A DNA stretch of 64,000 nucleotides from Deltaproteobacteria bacterium (lineage in GTDB: Bacteria; Desulfobacterota; GWC2-55-46; DRQE01), in contig WGFM01000002.1 in NCBI GenBank assembly GCA_015492245.1, forward strand, positions 62,001 through 126,000, given 5' to 3'. Positions 51,807 through 62,563 of the stretch are shown piece by piece. The position numbers were made by a program, and so were the translations under genes. Position 1 is the first letter of the stretch. The number at the start of each line of letters is the position of its first letter. A model generated the notes under the pieces. It was not told where the DNA came from and searched no databases. It saw only the letters and a program-made list of their open reading frames with translations.

Positions 51807-51830
51807 AAACCTGAAAGGAGTGTGGATCTT

Positions 51831-52550
51831 ATGAGGACATTCTTCAAAACCCATGCAATCATCTTTCTTCTGGCGCTCATCCTTCCTGTGTCATCCCATG
51901 CCTCAACGGACAAGGGTGTGCCAGACCTTGTGGTGGAATGGGATACACTCTGGCACCATATGATGATAGACATAACCGTTATAGGCATGATCTTTGCCAT
52001 TGTAACCCTGTATCTTATGTTCAAATACAGGAGAAGGACCCCTGACGAAGAGGGCGGAAGGTTCAGGCTTTCCACCCTTGGGGTTATGGGATGGACGCTG
52101 ATACCTGCCTTTATATTCTTGGCAGATGACATATTCCTTGCCGCAAAGAACTTCGAGGTGTGGCAGAAATATCGCAATGTGCCTGAGAACGCCTATGTGG
52201 TGGAGGTGGAGGCCTACATGTGGGGATGGGATGTAAAGTATCCCGAGGAAGAGATAGTGCTGACCAATGAGATGGTGGTGCCACAGGACAGGCCCGTCAT
52301 GGTGCGGCTCAAGAGCAGAGATGTGGTGCACAGTTTTTTTGCCCCTGAGCTGAGGGTTAAGTGGGATGCGGTGCCAGGGATGGTTACATACCTGTGGTTC
52401 AACACACACAAAGGGGGTGAATATCTGTTCACCTGCACAGAGTACTGTGGGTTGCTTCATTCCGGGATGTACGGAAAGATAAGGATTGTCCCTCCTCAGG
52501 AGTTCACAAGATGGATTGAAGATCATAGAGAGAAAGGAGGAAAGATATGA
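51831..52550 (+). CDS. cytochrome c oxidase subunit II with CuA site
   Basis: VVHSFFAPELRVKWDAVPG and CTEYCGLLHSGMYG CuA ligands; ATG 51831 with AAGGAG SD. Confidence 0.93.
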   Translation: MRTFFKTHAIIFLLALILPVSSHASTDKGVPDLVVEWDTLWHHMMIDITVIGMIFAIVTLYLMFKYRRRTPDEEGGRFRLSTLGVMGWTLIPAFIFLADDIFLAAKNFEVWQKYRNVPENAYVVEVEAYMWGWDVKYPEEEIVLTNEMVVPQDRPVMVRLKSRDVVHSFFAPELRVKWDAVPGMVTYLWFNTHKGGEYLFTCTEYCGLLHSGMYGKIRIVPPQEFTRWIEDHREKGGKI

Positions 52551-54205
52551 GTACCGCCGTAGAGAGCAAAACCAGAGAGGGTGGTTTCAGCCTCAAAGAG
52601 TGGATATTCACGACAGACCATAAAAGGATAGGCATACTGTATCTTATAGGTTCTTATGCCGCCTTTGCGGTGGCAGGTATTATGGCCATGCTCATGAGAA
52701 CCGAGCTCTCGAGCATCGGGCCAACCATAACAGAGAATCCAAACACCTACAATGTATGGCTCTATTTTCATGGGGCCGCAATGATACTGGGTTATCAGAT
52801 ACCGGCACTTACAGGGTTCTTTGCAAACTACTATGTGCCCCTTATGATAGGCGCAAAGGATGTTGCCTTTCCAAGGCTTAATGCCCTGAGTGTGTGGCTC
52901 TTCTGGATGGGTATAGTGCTGGCGCTTCTTACCTTTGTGGTGCCGGACCCCCCTGACATAATGTGGACAGGCTATCCTCCCTATTCGGTCATAACCCAGG
53001 GCAACACGGCTCTTTACACATTCACGGTGCTTCTTATAGGGTTTTCCTCCATAGCCGGAGGGGTCAACTTCCTTACCACCATAATATACATGCGTGCGCC
53101 TGGCATGACATGGGGCAAGCTCAACATGTTCATATGGTGCATCCTGACTGCCTTCATAATACAGATAATATTTGTGCCCGTGCTCGGCACAGCGGTAACC
53201 ATGATTTCCTTCGACAAATACCTGGGCACAACCTTCTTCAACGCCTCGATGGGTGGCACCGCGGTGCTCTATGAGAACCTTTTCTGGTTCTACTCTCATC
53301 CTGCCGTGTATGTAATACTGTTGCCTGCCATGGGGATCATCTACGAGATAGTTGCAACCTTTGCACGCAACAACATCTTCAACTATCGTGGTATTCTTTA
53401 CGGCGGTATATGGGGTGTGGTCGCCCTTGGTGGTATCGTGTGGGCACATCACCTCTATGTTGCAGGCATACCCGACTGGATGAGCCTCATACATGTGTTC
53501 CTGACACTTCTTATAAGTGTGCCCGTGGGGCTTCTCATGATAGGCATCGTGGGCACCCTTTACAAGGGCGCCATAGAGTACAGAACCCCCATGCTCTATG
53601 CCGTGGGCTTCGTGTTCCTCTTCCTTATAGGAGGACTGACTGGCATACCGAATGCCATGTCCAGCATATACATCCACATAACCGAGACCTACTGGATACC
53701 GGGCCACTTCCACTATGTTATGGCCCTGTCGGTTACATTTGCCATCATAGGTGGGACATACTACATATTCCCCAAGATGACAGGGAGGATGTATCACGAG
53801 GGGCTTGGCAAGCTGGGCTTCATACTGCTCTTTGTAGGGGCCAACATAACATTCTTTCTTACCATGGTCCTTGGTGTAAGGGGTATGCCCAGAAGATACT
53901 ATGACTACCCCCAGTTTCCAGAGTTCGAGGGTATACAGCAGCTGATAACCTATGGCTCCTATGTGATACTTGCAGGGTCTGTGGTGATACTTGCGTCCTG
54001 GGTCTACGGGCTTGTGCGGGGCGAGAAGGCCGTGGCAAACCCATGGGGCTCGAGAAGTCTTGAGTGGACCCATACGCCTTCTCCACCACCACCAGGGAAC
54101 TTTAAAGAAGTGCCCCAGCTTTCAGAGGACTGGAGCCCCTATGGATATGGCAACGGAAAGAGGGAAGAAGAGAAGGGTGAAGACCTTGAGCCTGCTCGCC
54201 CTTAA
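52547..54205 (+). CDS. cytochrome c oxidase subunit I, A-type heme-copper oxidase (YSHPAVY variant)
   Basis: HGAAMILG, FWFYSHPAVY, WAHH, GHFHYVM heme/CuB ligands. Confidence 0.95.
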   Translation: MSTAVESKTREGGFSLKEWIFTTDHKRIGILYLIGSYAAFAVAGIMAMLMRTELSSIGPTITENPNTYNVWLYFHGAAMILGYQIPALTGFFANYYVPLMIGAKDVAFPRLNALSVWLFWMGIVLALLTFVVPDPPDIMWTGYPPYSVITQGNTALYTFTVLLIGFSSIAGGVNFLTTIIYMRAPGMTWGKLNMFIWCILTAFIIQIIFVPVLGTAVTMISFDKYLGTTFFNASMGGTAVLYENLFWFYSHPAVYVILLPAMGIIYEIVATFARNNIFNYRGILYGGIWGVVALGGIVWAHHLYVAGIPDWMSLIHVFLTLLISVPVGLLMIGIVGTLYKGAIEYRTPMLYAVGFVFLFLIGGLTGIPNAMSSIYIHITETYWIPGHFHYVMALSVTFAIIGGTYYIFPKMTGRMYHEGLGKLGFILLFVGANITFFLTMVLGVRGMPRRYYDYPQFPEFEGIQQLITYGSYVILAGSVVILASWVYGLVRGEKAVANPWGSRSLEWTHTPSPPPPGNFKEVPQLSEDWSPYGYGNGKREEEKGEDLEPARP

Positions 54206-54998
54206 GCTGTTCTTCCTTGTGGCTGCCACAGAGGCTTCGGCCTCTGTGGACAGAGACTTCATGCGCTCTGCCTTCCAGAAGGCAAACAGTGCCATAGGCT
54301 CGAGGATAGGGAATCACACCCTTGTAGACCACAGGGGGGAGAGATTCGGTATCAGAGAGCTTCGGGGTAGACCAGTCGTTGTGAGCTTCATATACACAGA
54401 GTGTGCCAGCACATGTGCCGCCATAACCATGGCCATAGAGCGGGCATTGAAGAAGGCCTCCCCTGATATGCTGGAGAGATTCGTGGTGCTCACCATAGGG
54501 TTCGATACCGAGAGGGATACCCCCAGAAGGCTCTCGGAATATGCCAGACCATTCATGGACAGGTACAGAAACTGGCTCTTCGCAACGGCCGATGCCAATA
54601 CCATACAGAGGTTCACAGGTGAGACAGGCTTCTGGTTCAGAAAGAATTCAGGGGGAGGGTTCGACCATCTGAACATGGTTACCATAATAGATGACGAGGG
54701 CAGGATATACAAACACATATACGGTATCGACTTTGAGGCAGACGAGGTGCTCGAACCCCTCTATGCCATAATCAACAGAGAAGAGGGGCCTGCCAGGCCA
54801 CCTGATGCATCGGCAGGGGTGTTGGATGCGCTAAAACTTCTTTGCTACAGCTATGACGAGGCAACAGGAACCTACAGGCCTGACTACACATTCCTCATGA
54901 CAGTTGGAATGTGGATCGTGGTGCAGGTAGTGGGTGTGGCTTTTGTAATATATCTCTTTAAAGGAAGGAGGGATGCGGTAGGAAAGAAGAAAGGCTGA
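54141..54998 (+). CDS. SCO1/SenC-like copper chaperone with C-terminal TM
   Basis: FIYTECASTCAAIT (CxxxC), FDHLNMVTIIDDEG; start may be GTG 54177. Confidence 0.88.
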   Translation: MDMATERGKKRRVKTLSLLALKLFFLVAATEASASVDRDFMRSAFQKANSAIGSRIGNHTLVDHRGERFGIRELRGRPVVVSFIYTECASTCAAITMAIERALKKASPDMLERFVVLTIGFDTERDTPRRLSEYARPFMDRYRNWLFATADANTIQRFTGETGFWFRKNSGGGFDHLNMVTIIDDEGRIYKHIYGIDFEADEVLEPLYAIINREEGPARPPDASAGVLDALKLLCYSYDEATGTYRPDYTFLMTVGMWIVVQVVGVAFVIYLFKGRRDAVGKKKG

Positions 54999-55092: not shown

Positions 55093-55121
55093 TTGACATT
55101 CTACCCACTGTAGAATACCAT
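55093..55121 (+). promoter_or_regulatory. promoter with embedded repressor operator for the BlaI-like gene
   Basis: TTGACA-N17-TACCAT; the 17-bp spacer is exactly the dyad TTCTAC-ccact-GTAGAA (55099-55115). Confidence 0.75.
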
Positions 55122-55557
55122 GATAGATATGAAGTCCTTTCTTAAAAGCTTCAGAATAGGCAAGGCAGGCGGAGAGGCCCTTGGCCCGCTTGAGAGTGCC
55201 ATAATGGATGCCCTCTGGCACAAGGGGGGTGTTACAGGGAGAGCAGTATACAGAGAGGTACTAAGGAGCAAGAAGGTTGCCTACACCACTGTTCTTACAG
55301 TGCTTGAAAGGCTTGTGGGCAAGGGGCTCGTAAGAAAGAAGAAGAGTGAGGAAGGGTATGTCTTTTCAGCCCTGTACTCTAAGGAGGAGTTCGAAAGGAT
55401 GGTCTCGAGAGAGGTGCTAAGAGGGGTGCTTGAACTTTCCCAAACTACTGCTATAGTTAACTTTGTGGACCTGCTTGCAGAAGAGGATCCAGGAGAACTC
55501 GAAAGACTGCGAAGACTCGTTGAGGAGAAAAGCCTTGAACTGGGCAGGAAAGACTGA
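55120..55557 (+). CDS. BlaI/MecI/CopY-family transcriptional repressor
   Basis: LGPLESAIMDALWHKGGVTGRAVYREV winged helix, YTTVLTVLERLVGKGLV; conserved N-F (AIVNFVD) in the C-terminal helix; ATG 55129 may be the real (leaderless) start. Confidence 0.9.
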   Translation: MIDMKSFLKSFRIGKAGGEALGPLESAIMDALWHKGGVTGRAVYREVLRSKKVAYTTVLTVLERLVGKGLVRKKKSEEGYVFSALYSKEEFERMVSREVLRGVLELSQTTAIVNFVDLLAEEDPGELERLRRLVEEKSLELGRKD

Positions 55558-56452
55558 TATAGCAACATACATAAAGGCAGGGCTTGTTGCCTTCATAGTA
55601 TCGGCTCTGTTGCTTGTGGTGCTTGGTGTGGTCAGGCTTTCGGGGCTCTTCTATGACCTTGTGGAGTGGTGCAGGAGTGTGGTGGAAGGTTGTCTGCCCT
55701 ATCTCTCGGCAGATATTATACTCTTCTGGTTTTCCGGGGGGCTCATAGTTGCAGGGTTCATCTACGCAACCGTAAAGAACACAGCAGGTCTTCTGCGGGG
55801 ATACTGGCGTATAAAGAGTTTTCCCATTCACCACACAACTGGCTCATCCAGTGTTGTGCTCATAAAGGACGACTCTCTGGCAGTGGCCTTCACCCAGGGG
55901 CTTCTGCGTCCAAGGATATACATATCCACAGGGCTCATGAAGAGTCTCTCAAGGGAAGAGCTTCTGGGGGTGGTCTACCACGAGATGCACCACAAAAGAA
56001 GAAAAGACCCCCTGAGGATACTGGGGCTGTCTTTCATGAAAGATGCCCTCTTCTACCTTCCTGTTGGAAGATACCTTGAAAAAAGGATATTGAGGCTCAA
56101 GGAGTTTGAGGCAGACAGAACCGCAGCCCTGCGGCTTGAAAGCCCTGTGCCCATAGCAAGGGCACTGCTCAAGCTCAAGGAGTCCTTTATCCTCAGGCAG
56201 CCAGGAGGAGCATATATCACCGGATATGAACTTAAAGAAAGGATAGATGGACTCCTGGGCAGAACAACACACATTGTGCATGGAAGACCCTCTGCCGGGT
56301 TTCTTATTAAAAACATGGTGATAGTGGTGATGCTCCTTGCGGGGCTTCTGATGCCGGTCTTTGCTACAGAAGACTACACCTGCACCACCAAACACTGCAC
56401 CCACCACATGGAAAAACTGGGGAAGGTATGCGAAACACACTGTCATACATGA
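55535..56452 (+). CDS. BlaR1/MecR1-like M56 membrane metalloprotease with Cys/His-rich C-terminal tail
   Basis: VVYHEMHHKRRKDPLR (HExxH), multiple TMs, C-terminal EDYTCTTKHCTHHMEKLGKVCETHCHT; TTG start with GAGGAG SD, overlapping blaI-like end. Confidence 0.87.
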   Translation: MNWAGKTDIATYIKAGLVAFIVSALLLVVLGVVRLSGLFYDLVEWCRSVVEGCLPYLSADIILFWFSGGLIVAGFIYATVKNTAGLLRGYWRIKSFPIHHTTGSSSVVLIKDDSLAVAFTQGLLRPRIYISTGLMKSLSREELLGVVYHEMHHKRRKDPLRILGLSFMKDALFYLPVGRYLEKRILRLKEFEADRTAALRLESPVPIARALLKLKESFILRQPGGAYITGYELKERIDGLLGRTTHIVHGRPSAGFLIKNMVIVVMLLAGLLMPVFATEDYTCTTKHCTHHMEKLGKVCETHCHT

Positions 56453-57777
56453 GGAAAGGTGTTTTTTTGTCATCTATTTCTACATTGTGTAGAACGGGCT
56501 GTATCCTTCTGGTCCTTCTCATGCTGTTTGTTGTAGGCCATCCTGTTCCATCAGGGGCTGCCGGCACAAAGGAGCCCACGGGGCTTCAGGCGCTTATAGA
56601 TTATGCACTTCAGAACAACCAGCTCATAAAGGCGAGAAAGGCAGAGCTTGAGGCTACGAAAAACAGAAAGCCATGGAAAGAGGCGTTCGATGATCCCATG
56701 CTCTCATACATCCATCCAGTAGAACCTGTTGAGACCAGAAGGGGACCACAGGAAAGAACCCTCGGGATAACACAGAAGCTGCCTTTCCCGGGAAAACTGA
56801 GGCTCGAAGGAGAGATAGTCTCCAAGGAGATAGAGGTGGCAAGGCTTCTCTACGAGATGGCGATAAGGGATGTGGTTACAGAGGTGAAGAAACTCTACTA
56901 CGAACTTTACTATCTCGACAGGGCCATAGAACTGGAAGAGGAGAACCGAAAGATACTGGCCTACTTCAAAGAGCTTGCCATGAAGAACTACAGTGTGGAT
57001 GAGAAGGCACTCACCCCGCTTATAAGGGCAGAGGCAAAGTATGAGCGGGCATGGAACATGCTCGTGATGCTGAAAGAGAGAAGACACACCATAAGCGCAA
57101 GGCTCAATGCCATACTTAACAGACCACCAGCAGAAAAGATAGATAGAACAGAGGACATAACACCCGAGCCTGTAGGTGTATCGATAGATGTGCTCTACGA
57201 GATGGCAAAGGACATAGAAGAGATACGCACAAAGGAGAACGAGTTGAGAAAGGCAGAACTTTCGGAGAGGCTTTCGAGGCTCGTCTATTACCCGGACTTT
57301 ACACTGGGGCTTGTGTACACAGAAATAGGCGAGAGCGATATGCCCGTGGAAGACAGCGGAAAGGACGCCCTCTCTTTCATGGTGGGCATAAACATACCCC
57401 TGTGGGCAGAGAAGAACAGAGGCAGGGTTGAAGAGCAGGTGAACAGAAGGCTTTCTGTAGAGCGCAAGAAGGAGCTTGTCCTTAAAGAGGTGCTCAACAG
57501 GGTAAGGGATGCCTACTACTCGATGCTCGAGAAATACGAACTCATAGGCAGCTACCGTGATGAGCTCATACCCATGGCAAAAGAATCCATGAATATAGCA
57601 GAGGCATGGTATGAAAACGGCATAGGTGGGCTTGGAGAACTGCTCGAGACAGAGAGCATGTGGATAAACTTCAGAAGGGCCTACTATAGAACAGTTGCAG
57701 ATTACCTTAAGTATACTGCAGAGCTTGAAAGGCTCACAGGGTTTAACAAAAAAGAGCGGGAGGCTTCCTTAAGATGA
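56449..57777 (+). CDS. TolC/CusC-family outer-membrane efflux protein
   Basis: OEP coiled-coil repeats; ATG overlapping preceding stop (ATGA); signal peptide. Confidence 0.88.
   Translation: MRKGVFLSSISTLCRTGCILLVLLMLFVVGHPVPSGAAGTKEPTGLQALIDYALQNNQLIKARKAELEATKNRKPWKEAFDDPMLSYIHPVEPVETRRGPQERTLGITQKLPFPGKLRLEGEIVSKEIEVARLLYEMAIRDVVTEVKKLYYELYYLDRAIELEEENRKILAYFKELAMKNYSVDEKALTPLIRAEAKYERAWNMLVMLKERRHTISARLNAILNRPPAEKIDRTEDITPEPVGVSIDVLYEMAKDIEEIRTKENELRKAELSERLSRLVYYPDFTLGLVYTEIGESDMPVEDSGKDALSFMVGINIPLWAEKNRGRVEEQVNRRLSVERKKELVLKEVLNRVRDAYYSMLEKYELIGSYRDELIPMAKESMNIAEAWYENGIGGLGELLETESMWINFRRAYYRTVADYLKYTAELERLTGFNKKEREASLR
56478..56494. promoter_or_regulatory. second copy of the BlaI-like operator dyad
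   Basis: TTCTACATTGTGTAGAA, same TTCTAC-N5-GTAGAA as at 55099-55115; overlaps TTGTCA-N17-TAGAAC promoter-like pair. Confidence 0.7.
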
Positions 57778-59045
57778 AGGGAAAGATAAATACGCTCTGT
57801 CTTGTGCTGGTCTGTCTGGCCATCATAGGAGGTGTTACAGCTGCATACCTCTATCTAAAAAAGGATACTCCTTCCATGGAGATGGCAGAGCATGCCGCAC
57901 ACAGGGCAGAGAAGAAAAAGGAGAAGAAGATACTTTACTGGCGGGCACCCATGGACCCAACCTACATATCCGACAAGCCAGGAAAGTCTCCCATGGGGAT
58001 GGACCTCATCCCCGTATATGAAGGAGAAGAGGAAGAGGCAGGTATCGTCAAGATAGACCCCCGTGTTGTGCAGAGCATAGGGGTGAGAACAGAGAAGGTA
58101 GAAAGGATGCCCCTCAGAAAGAACATAAGGACCGTTGGAAGGGTGGACTATGACGAGAAGAAACTCTACCACATACACACGAAGATAGATGGATGGATAG
58201 AGAAGCTCTATGTGGATTACACAGGCCAGCTCGTAAAGAAAGACGAGATGCTCCTCGAGATATACAGCCCACAGCTTGTGGCAGCCCAGGAGGAATACCT
58301 TCTTGCCAGAAGATACAGTAAAGAGGTGAAACTTGAAGGCATAAAGGAGTTCGACCTTCTCGAGCTCAGCCGCAGAAGGCTCGAGCTCTGGGATGTGCCC
58401 CCCCATCAGATAGAAGAGCTCGACAGGACAGGCACCATCATGCGAACCCTCCACATACACTCGCCTGTCAAGGGTATCGTGGTGGAAAAGCCAGTAAGAG
58501 AGGGCATGTTCGTAAAGCCTGGCACGAAACTCTACACCATAGCAGATCTATCCACCATATGGGTATACGTGGATATATACGAGTACGAGCTACCGTGGAT
58601 AAAGGCAGGCGATGTGGCGGAACTGACACTTACAAGCCAGCCTGGCAGGACATACCGTGGCAGGGTGAGCTTCGTATATCCCTTCATGGACCCCAAAACG
58701 CGTACCAACAAGGTAAGGCTTGAGTTTTCAAACCCAGGGTTCGAGCTCAAACCAGATATGTATGCCGATGTATCAATAAAGGCATCCATAAGAAAAGAGA
58801 GCATAGTGGTGCCCAAGGAGGCGGTTATAAGGTCAGGAGAGAGAAATGTGGTAATCCTCTCTCTCGGAGAGGGTAGATTCATGGCAAAGGAGATAACCCT
58901 GGGTGTGGAAGGTGGAGAGTGGTATGAGGTCAAAGAGGGACTGAAAGAGGGGGACACAGTGGTTGTTAGCGCACAGTTCCTCATAGACTCGGAGAGCAGG
59001 CTCAAAGAGGCCATCGGAAAGATGAGCGGCATGCACCACCATTAA
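57774..59045 (+). CDS. cusB: CusB-family RND periplasmic adaptor with N-terminal heavy-metal-binding domain
   Basis: ILYWRAPMDPTYISDKPGKSPMGMDLIPVYEGEE, GRVDYDEKKLYHIHTKIDGWIEKLYVDYTGQ; C-terminal GMHHH. Confidence 0.9.
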   Translation: MKGKINTLCLVLVCLAIIGGVTAAYLYLKKDTPSMEMAEHAAHRAEKKKEKKILYWRAPMDPTYISDKPGKSPMGMDLIPVYEGEEEEAGIVKIDPRVVQSIGVRTEKVERMPLRKNIRTVGRVDYDEKKLYHIHTKIDGWIEKLYVDYTGQLVKKDEMLLEIYSPQLVAAQEEYLLARRYSKEVKLEGIKEFDLLELSRRRLELWDVPPHQIEELDRTGTIMRTLHIHSPVKGIVVEKPVREGMFVKPGTKLYTIADLSTIWVYVDIYEYELPWIKAGDVAELTLTSQPGRTYRGRVSFVYPFMDPKTRTNKVRLEFSNPGFELKPDMYADVSIKASIRKESIVVPKEAVIRSGERNVVILSLGEGRFMAKEITLGVEGGEWYEVKEGLKEGDTVVVSAQFLIDSESRLKEAIGKMSGMHHH

Positions 59046-59090: not shown

Positions 59091-62000
59091 ATGCTTAAAA
59101 AGATAATAGAGTTCTCCATAAACAACAGGTTCCTGGTTATAGTGGGCACCCTCCTCATAATAGGCTGGGGTATATTCAGCATAAAGAACATACCACTTGA
59201 TGCCATACCAGACCTCAGTGATGTGCAGGTAATAATATACACCGAGTATCCGGGCCAGGCCCCGCAGGTGGTCGAAGACCAGATAACATACCCCATTGCC
59301 ACGGTGATGCTCAGTGTGTCCGGGGCAAAGGTTGTGAGGGGGTATTCATTCTTCGGTTTCTCCTTCGTGTATGTGATATTCGAGGACGGCACAGACATGT
59401 ACTGGGCACGAAGCAGGGTGCTGGAATACCTCAACTATGTGGCAGGAAAACTTCCCCCAGGGGTTACTCCAAGCCTTGGGCCCGATGCAACAGGGGTGGG
59501 ATGGGTATACGAGTATGCACTGGTGGATAGAACGGGCAGATACGACCTTTCAGAACTCCGTAGCCTTCAGGACTGGTTCCTCAGATACGAGCTCCAGACA
59601 GTGCCGGGTGTGTCAGAGGTTGCAAGCATAGGCGGGTTTGTAAAGCAATACCAGGTTGAGGTGGATCCGAACAGGCTCCTTACCTACAACATACCGCTTC
59701 AGAAGGTGAAACATGCCATACAGCGCTCAAACAACGATGTCGGTGGCAGGGTGGTGGAGATGGCAGAGACGGAGTACATGGTAAGGGGGCTGGGCTACAT
59801 AAGGGGCATAAAGGACATTGAGAACATAGTTGTGGATGTGGACCAAAAGGGCACCCCCGTATTGCTTCGAGACATTGCCTACATCCATACAGGCCCGGAA
59901 CTCAGAAGGGGCCTTGCAGAGCTCGACGGCGAGGGCGAGGTTGTGGGTGGCATAGTGGTAATGCGTTACGGAGAGAACGCCCTCAAGGTTATAGATGCCG
60001 TAAAGGAAAGGCTCGAGGAACTCAAAAAGGGACTTCCAGAAGGGGTGGAGGTTATTTCAGTCTATGACCGCAGCAAGCTCATCCACAGGGCAGTGGAAAC
60101 ACTCAAGAAGAAGCTGATAGAGGAGATAATAGTTGTAACCCTTATATGTGTACTGTTTCTTATGCACCTGAGGAGTGCCCTCGTTATCATCATAGCCCTT
60201 CTTTCAGGGGTGCTCGTCTCGTTCATAGTCATGTATTACCAGGGTATAAACGCAAACATAATGAGCCTTGGCGGTATAGCCATAGCCATAGGGGCGATGA
60301 TAGATGCTGCCATAGTGATGGTGGAGAACGCCCACAAAAGACTCGAAGAGGCTGCCAAAAGGGGTGAGGATGTAGACCGCTGGCATGTAATAATGGGTGC
60401 GGCAAAGGAGATTGGGCCGTCGCTATTTTTTGCACTCCTCATAATAACATTCTCGTTCCTGCCCGTCTTCAGCCTCCAGGCCCAGGAGGGTCGCCTTTTC
60501 AGCCCCCTTGCCTTCACAAAGACCTATGCCATGGCGGGCGCCGCCATACTGGCAATAACACTGGTGCCAGTGCTCATGGGCTACCTCATAAAGGGCAAGA
60601 TATTCCCTGAAGAGAAAAACCCCATGGGAAGAGTCCTCGTGGCAGTGTACAGGCCTGTTGTGTACTTCGCACTGAAATACAAGAAGACCACCATAGTGGT
60701 ATCTATACTCATACTTGTAGCCACGGTTGTGCCCTACAAAAGGCTGGGCTCCGAGTTCATGCCACCCCTCAACGAGGGCGACATACTCTACATGCCCACC
60801 ACCCTGCCAGGCATATCCATAACAAAGGCAAGGGAGATATTGCAGCAGACAGATAAGATACTCAAGACCTTCCCAGAGGTGGAACATGTGTTCGGAAAGA
60901 TAGGCAGGGCAGAGACCCCCACAGACCCTGCCCCGCTTACCATGATAGAGACAACGATAACACTCAAGCCACCTGATGAGTGGCGCCCAGGCATGACCAT
61001 GGAAAAACTCATGCAGGAGATGGACAGGGCCATAAGGTTCCCAGGGGTTACAAACGCATGGACCATGCCCATAAAGACCCGTGTGGACATGCTCTCTACA
61101 GGTATAAAGACCCCTGTGGGTATAAAGATAGCAGGAGACGACCTTAAGACCATAGAGGAGATAGGCAGACACATAGAGGGCCTTATCAAGGATGTGCCGG
61201 GCACGCTCAGTGTCTACTCCGAGAGGGTTACAGGCGGAAACTACCTCGACTACGAGATAGATCGGCTCAGTGCGGCCCGATACGGGCTGACCGTGGGGGA
61301 TGTGCAGGATGTTATCCAGTCTGCCATAGGGGGGATGAATATAACCACCACTGTGGAGGGCAGAGAACGATACCCCGTGAACCTTCGCTACCCGAGGGAA
61401 TTGAGGGATGATATATCCAAGCTCGAGCGAATCCTCATACCCACACCCACGGGCACACAGATACCGATAGCACAGGTTGCCAGTATGAAGATAAGGAAGG
61501 GACCCCCCTCGATAAAGAGCGAGAACGCAAGGCTAAACGGCTGGATATATGTGGATATAAGGGACATAGATGTGGGAACCTATGTGGAGAAGGCAAAGGA
61601 AGTGGTGGAAAAGAATGTGAAACTTCCAAAGGGATATTCCATAACATGGAGCGGGCAGTACGAATACATGGAGCGGGCGAAGAAAAGGCTCATGGTGGTG
61701 GTGCCCCTTACCATAGCCATAATACTGTTTCTCCTGTATCTGCACTTCAACAATGTGGTGGAGTGCCTCATCATAATGGTCTCTCTGCCCTTTTCCGTGG
61801 TTGGTGGGGTATGGCTCATGTATCTTCTGGGCTACAACATGAGTGTGGCCGTGGGGGTGGGCTTTATCGCCCTTGCGGGTGTGGCAGTGGAGATAGGTAT
61901 AATAATGCTCGCATATCTGGACCTCATGTATAAAGAACGATACCTCCATGGTGGCATAAACACCACGGAGGAACTCTATGAGGCCATAGTGGATGGGGCT

Positions 62001-62219
62001 GTAAGACGCATAAGGCCAGTGATAATGACCTTTGCCATGATTGTAGGAGGGCTTCTGCCCATAATGTGGGGCACAGGCACGGGCTCCGCGGTTATGAAGA
62101 GGATTGCAGCTCCCATGGTGGGTGGAATGGTGTCAGCCACGGTGCTTACACTACTGGTAATACCTGCCATATATGCATTGTGGAAGGGTATGTATATCAA
62201 AAAGGAGGGGCAGAAATGA
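59091..62219 (+). CDS. cusA: CusA-family heavy-metal RND efflux pump
   Basis: 1042-aa [32 protein letters not shown] and [10 protein letters not shown] typical of Cu/Ag pumps. Confidence 0.93.
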   Translation: [1042 protein letters not shown]

Positions 62220-62563
62220 AGGAGATAAAGGCATACATAAGGCCCGAGAAGATAGAAGAGGTGGTGCACACACTGGAAGAGAACGGTGTGCCCCTTGTCA
62301 CAGCTATAGAGATAAAGTGTGTTGGAAAGGGTCTGAACGAGGAGAAGGCACGCTATTCTATGGACTATACAGAAAAGTACTGCCCCTTTGTGAAGATAGA
62401 GATAGTCTGTAGCCGTAGGGACACGGAAAAGACGGTCAAACTTCTTCGGTCCTGTGCATGGACAGGACATCCAGGTGATGGGATGATATTTGTAAGCACT
62501 GTGGACGAGGCCATAAACATAAGAACAGGTGCAAGGGGAGAAGAGGGGGTGAGCCTCTGGTAG
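62216..62563 (+). CDS. PII-like (GlnB-superfamily) protein in metal-efflux operon
   Basis: MKEIKAYIRPEKIEEVV, TGHPGDGMIFV, INIRTGARGEE; ATGA overlap with cusA. Confidence 0.85.
   Translation: MKEIKAYIRPEKIEEVVHTLEENGVPLVTAIEIKCVGKGLNEEKARYSMDYTEKYCPFVKIEIVCSRRDTEKTVKLLRSCAWTGHPGDGMIFVSTVDEAINIRTGARGEEGVSLW

Follow-up and report, generated by a model that had tools for sequence, protein, structure and literature searches.

This locus raises the question of what a BlaI/BlaR1-type pair responds to when its genes run directly into those of a CusCBA-type efflux pump and its membrane protease lacks a penicillin sensor. Its features, within the 64,000-nucleotide stretch of DNA that was analysed (the window), are collected in Table 1. 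Comparison with related genomes suggests that the pair is probably a copper-responsive, and possibly also silver-responsive, switch of the BlaI/BlaR1 type, copper being the most likely signal; the choice between copper and silver is based on the homology of the pump and the content of the regulon.

Table 1 Features of the blaI-m56-cusCBA locus, with positions in the window.
Feature	Position	Strand	Basis or remark
Sigma70-type promoter: TTGACA 55093-55098, 17-nt spacer, -10 TACCAT 55116-55121	55093..55121	+	Sequence and same layout in relatives
Operator 1 (TTCTAC-N5-GTAGAA, a perfect inverted repeat), which fills the spacer of the promoter	55099..55115	+	Sequence, pattern search
blaI (BlaI/MecI/CopY-family repressor, 145 aa)	55120..55557	+	Pfam PF03965; PDB matches 2g9w, 1sd4, 1okr
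N114-F115 of the repressor	55459..55464	+	Aligned by HMMER with the cleavage bond N101-F102 of MecI and BlaI
m56 (M56 membrane metalloprotease, 305 aa; TTG start)	55535..56452	+	Three hydrophobic peaks, without penicillin-sensor domain
C46 and C53 of M56, predicted extracytoplasmic loop TM1-TM2	55670..55693	+	40-protein alignment
Catalytic HEMHH (H149, E150, H153) and E190 of M56	55979..56104	+	Invariant, 40/40
Cys/His tail of M56, residues 279-305, predicted extracytoplasmic	56369..56449	+	Conservation and purifying selection
cusC (CusC-type outer-membrane factor)	56449..57777	+	Pfam OEP 1.9e-34; start set by comparison with same-genus locus L074
T7 run ending exactly 9 nt ahead of operator 2	56462..56468	+	Comparison of loci
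Operator 2, TTCTAC-N5-GTAGAA, m56/cusC junction (here inside the cusC start)	56478..56494	+	Sequence, comparison
cusB (CusB-type adaptor with heavy-metal-binding domain HMBD)	57774..59045	+	Pfam HlyD_D23 1.1e-83, HMBD
cusA (CusA-type RND pump with three Cu/Ag methionines)	59091..62219	+	TIGR00914

All five genes overlap or abut, in agreement with the coupling of blaI, m56 and the pump genes proposed earlier from the letters of the DNA (the sequence-only reading). The m56 start is preceded 7 nt upstream by a Shine-Dalgarno sequence, GAGGAG, and m56 overlaps blaI; the cusC start overlaps the m56 stop (ATGA at 56449), cusB overlaps cusC, and cusA begins 45 nt past the end of cusB. CusA scored 1324 bits against E. 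coli CusA and 1290.7 bits against TIGR00914 (cut-off 701), and its methionines M568, M618 and M667 correspond to M573, M623 and M672 of the E. coli protein, all three being kept. For CusB, the NCBIfam CusB model was the best match, with a score under its cut-off. Directly upstream of blaI lie COX2, COX1 and SCO1 (51822-54998), in an order identical to that in the same-genus locus L074. A gene for a P-II-family protein (62216-62563) comes right after cusA, and such a protein is also labelled near cusA in relatives L059, L060 and L075.

Of 97 genomes, 51 contained relatives of the M56 protein (E up to 1e-5), some of these being weak matches to other metalloproteases, and about 50 genomes with relatives belong to the same class as the source. 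A profile search of contigs brought up 14 loci in deltaproteobacterial MAGs and two in Streptomyces, the match in the latter covering part of the query only. BlaI adjoins M56 in 45 of 49 loci, and a full CusCBA set lies beside M56 in 33 of 37; as the relatives are phylogenetically related, these genome and locus counts are not independent.

Taken as a single protein, the M56 sequence gave weak Pfam scores (M56, 29.7 bits with a cut-off of 31; M48, 7e-9). A profile built from 40 relatives, which align with about 36% overall identity, retrieved BlaR1 (8exp) as the first PDB match with an E-value of 2.7e-10. The AlphaFold model, with a mean pLDDT of 85 and low confidence in the tail (block means 63-71), also had BlaR1 as its best PDB match (E 1e-4), at a TM-score of only 0.44. 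The HExxH...E gluzincin site expected on the M56 fold is present, with its four residues conserved in all 40 aligned proteins, and sequence and comparison support the protein as an intact BlaR1-fold protease. Hydrophobic peaks were observed at residues 15-33, 61-79 and 257-275. The region following TM2 is strongly positive (K+R 4.45 versus D+E 0.15), while loop 1 shows the opposite bias; this positive charge between TM2 and TM3, absent from loop 1, places loop 1 and the C-terminal tail outside the cytoplasm and the protease inside.

Beyond the last TM, Pfam detected no domain, leaving only a 27-residue tail in place of a C-terminal penicillin-binding sensor domain; both the missing domain and the short Cys/His tail had been pointed out from the sequence, and the tail is as quoted there, conserved, and predicted to be extracytoplasmic from the charge distribution. 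It has the pattern C283-x4-C288-x10-C299-x3-C303, together with H287, H290, H291, H302 and H304. All sequences of the 40-protein alignment have C283 and C303, 39 have C288, 39 have C299, and 36 have H302. A comparison of m56 in two congeneric species shows 11 changes in the last 28 codons, of which 10 are synonymous and one is non-synonymous, as compared to 51 synonymous and 45 non-synonymous changes in the preceding 148 codons. The m56 tail is under strong purifying selection. A second pair of cysteines is located in the loop between TM1 and TM2, with C53 invariant (40/40) and C46 present in all 37 sequences where the column exists. In BlaR1, loop EL1 contacts the sensor domain and relays the signal via helix alpha3 (PMC9834060). 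By analogy, we infer that the C46/C53 loop could do the job of EL1.

The window contains exactly two copies of the inverted repeat TTCTAC-N5-GTAGAA, which start at 55099 and 56478, and TTCTAC is the sole arm of a 6-5-6 palindrome that occurs there twice. The first copy fills the spacer of the promoter, and about 43 loci show this promoter-operator layout ahead of blaI, with a -10 element that is mostly TATATT, TATAAT, TATCAT or TATTAT. A search of 61 relatives with the pattern TTGACWTTCTACN5GTMGAATA gave 76 matches in 47 genomes, and none with the reversed control pattern. Phylum-wide, the pattern was found in 14 of 395 sampled genomes, all inside the class of the source. In a 2x2 table for the 61 relatives, compiled manually from two outputs and covering related, non-independent genomes, operator and strong M56 match were both present in 45, both absent in 12 and discordant in 4 (Fisher 4e-9). 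Where they are not next to m56, the matches stand before genes for YHS/HMA copper ATPases, YHS proteins and small Cys-rich membrane proteins, before further CusCBA operons, and before BlaI-CusC-CusB loci that have no m56. The genome of the window itself has operator matches, one of them carrying one mismatch, ahead of two ATPases scoring above the cut-off of the copper-ATPase model (TIGR01511). BlaI is the likely binding protein for these putative operators, given their position and co-occurrence. These comparisons support conservation across one class for the tail and the gene order, as well as for the promoter-operator and a wider copper regulon, and the proposal that the BlaI/M56 pair controls copper (or silver) efflux gains comparative support from gene order, operators and regulon. 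Near-identical operators and flanks were also seen at L093:3145 and L096:6152, one of which is followed by a copper ATPase, and the unit looks repeated or mobile.

The content of this regulon also bears on whether the pair reads a different signal, such as Zn, Hg, thiol/disulfide or envelope stress, with the tail serving as a redox or structural zinc element. Four cysteines and several histidines could equally bind Zn or form disulfides. The signal can, moreover, vary within the family, as indicated by a paralogous BlaI/M56/CusCBA-like set in the same genome (L034:6250-14140), in which the tail reads CNHEYC...CPSD...C...C and the operators have a 4-nt spacer; this spacer and tail type recur in L053 and L085. 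Against a different signal for the present pair, the regulon consists of copper export functions (Cu-ATPases, CusCBA and YHS proteins) and CusA keeps its Cu/Ag methionines, and we regard such a signal as unlikely.

CsoR was not found in 59 of the 61 relatives searched, and the two genomes that carry it have neither M56 nor the operator. The BlaI/M56 pair need not be the sole copper sensor in these bacteria, as the search covered CsoR and other regulators such as CueR or CusRS may be present. In two further genomes (G022 and G033), M56 occurs without an adjacent BlaI, and a separate BlaI-CusC-CusB locus lies under the same promoter-operator, an arrangement that fits a protease acting in trans.

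The repressor contains a Penicillinase_R domain (PF03965, 84.5 bits, 9e-24; cut-off 22.6). Since the -10 box overlaps the ATG at 55120, its start may instead be the ATG at 55129; if the promoter is used with this start, the transcript may be leaderless or nearly so. The possibility that the repressor senses copper itself, with M56 only turning the repressor over or doing something else, has its model in Firmicutes CopY/CopR, which belongs to the same repressor family and has copper-export target genes; CopY senses copper via Cys-x-Cys motifs and binds RNYKACANNTGTMRNY (PMC7253601). The repressor does match the CopY/TcrY model TIGR02698, although at 40.4 bits it falls far under the cut-off of 122, and solo BlaI genes without an adjacent M56 are found under the same promoter. 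In contrast to CopY, the window repressor contains no cysteine (relatives carry 0-2) and the C-terminal Cys-x-Cys metal motifs were not found in it, so it is not CopY-like. The CopY-type operator TACANNTGTA was likewise not found in the M56/BlaI family, whose sites are of the TTCTAC-N5-GTAGAA type. With the co-occurrence of M56 and operator across genomes and the strict conservation of the tail, direct sensing by the repressor appears very unlikely.

BlaR1 cleaves its repressor BlaI at Asn101-Phe102 and undergoes autocleavage at Ser283-Phe284 (PMC9834060). The N-F pair picked out in the sequence-only reading does align with the MecI bond, but it is not supported as evidence for the cut site: S-F occupies this position in 40 of 50 aligned rows, and N-F in five, including MecI itself, i.e. 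in only four family sequences. N-F was hence rejected as a family-wide cut site. S-F would still suit the protease, given the autocleavage of BlaR1 at such a pair, and is a plausible cut site in the repressor by this analogy. The conserved Phe at the putative cut position could instead be structural.

Among the 50 loci with enough sequence, 39 have the second operator just past the m56 stop. A T-run of 5-9 precedes it at 37 of 38 N5 sites, with a gap of 9 nt in 34 and 10 nt in 3. Searching the 61 relatives genome-wide for T5-N9-operator gave 39 matches, most of them at the m56/cusC junction, and none with the control. An intrinsic terminator at the T-run was considered and rejected, the preceding 45 nt folding no better than shuffled sequences (mean z -0.37). 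A sigma70 promoter at operator 2 was also rejected: only 9 of 39 loci have T as the sixth base of the would-be -10 (TAGAAn), and no conserved -35 abutting the operator was found across the loci compared. Roadblocking of polymerase by repressors is established in general (PMC10310618); no precedent for the T-run geometry was found in that source. We hypothesize that operator 2 and the T-run form a repressor-gated roadblock, at which polymerase would stall at bound BlaI with the RNA 3' end in the T-run and release, so that cleavage of the repressor would set read-through into cusCBA.

In the mechanism we propose for the copper-responsive switch, a repressor dimer would fill the -35/-10 spacer without copper and shut the promoter, and would also occupy operator 2 ahead of cusC. 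Periplasmic Cu(I)/Ag(I) would be coordinated by the tail Cys/His residues, perhaps together with C46 and C53, and binding would move the loop and the following TM helix, as for EL1 and helix alpha3 in BlaR1. This movement would open the cytoplasmic HExxH site, and the opened protease would cut the repressor on the N-terminal side of the conserved Phe, at N-F in this protein and at S-F in most relatives, derepressing blaI-m56-cusCBA and the wider copper regulon. The complete version of this scheme, in which the tail peptide and loop Cys pair are the sensor and the repressor acts both by promoter occlusion at operator 1 and as a T-run roadblock at operator 2, is put forward only tentatively. A role of the tail in supplying metal to the pump, as a periplasmic chaperone or loading site and not as the sensor, conceivable for an extracytoplasmic peptide encoded directly beside cusC, is highly improbable, because the tail is kept in L058, where m56 is unlinked from cusCBA, and in L051, where the next genes are not CusCBA.

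Like staphylococcal BlaR1/BlaI and MecR1/MecI, the system has an M56 gluzincin membrane protease, an adjacent gene for a same-family repressor with Phe at the P1' position, and promoter palindromes. It differs in having the 27-residue Cys/His tail and loop Cys pair instead of the penicillin-sensor domain, and operators of the TTCTAC-N5-GTAGAA type at copper exporters instead of the BlaR1/MecR1 operator arms TACANNTGTA. A response of a BlaI/BlaR1-type pair to copper has a precedent in PetR/PetP of Synechocystis sp. PCC 6803, a copper-responsive pair of a BlaI-type regulator and a BlaR1-type protease, with a regulon of plastocyanin/cytochrome c6 and two further proteins and not efflux (PMC7896320). 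BlaI-M56-TolC-CusB-CusA/CzcA operons with the same gene order are annotated on gammaproteobacterial plasmids, from Salmonella (IncC), Shewanella, Pseudoalteromonas and Glaciecola. Their M56 proteins share about 27-42% identity over part of the sequence and have tails without Cys (HH...H), and their pumps lack the CusA methionine context at that site. Four such plasmid operons (L176, L177, L178 and L180, including Salmonella IncC) have His-only tails, and the sensor ligands may track the metal of the pump. On a Paenibacillus plasmid (L181:5235-8390), BlaI-M56 is followed by CopC and CopD, and the M56 protein has no Cys/His tail. Copper-linked BlaI/BlaR1-type regulation (PetR/PetP) and same-order BlaI-M56-RND plasmid operons are thus already known, and by title and abstract no description of a Cys/His-tailed M56-BlaI-CusCBA arrangement was found in the literature. 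New here are the conserved tail and loop cysteines, the operator in the promoter spacer and its copper regulon, and the T-run/operator element at the m56/cusC junction; the sequence-only reading had not reported the operators, their regulon, the C46/C53 pair or the T-run/operator element.

If the copper-responsive reading is correct, the BlaR1 protease module would be a general, retargetable transmembrane sensor, in which a minimal metal-binding peptide can take the place of the penicillin domain. With a sensor of 27 residues, the passage of the signal through the membrane in M56 receptors would become directly testable by mutation. In addition, the analysis provides a candidate copper-export regulon for this class of uncultured bacteria, where only 2 of the 61 genomes searched carry CsoR.
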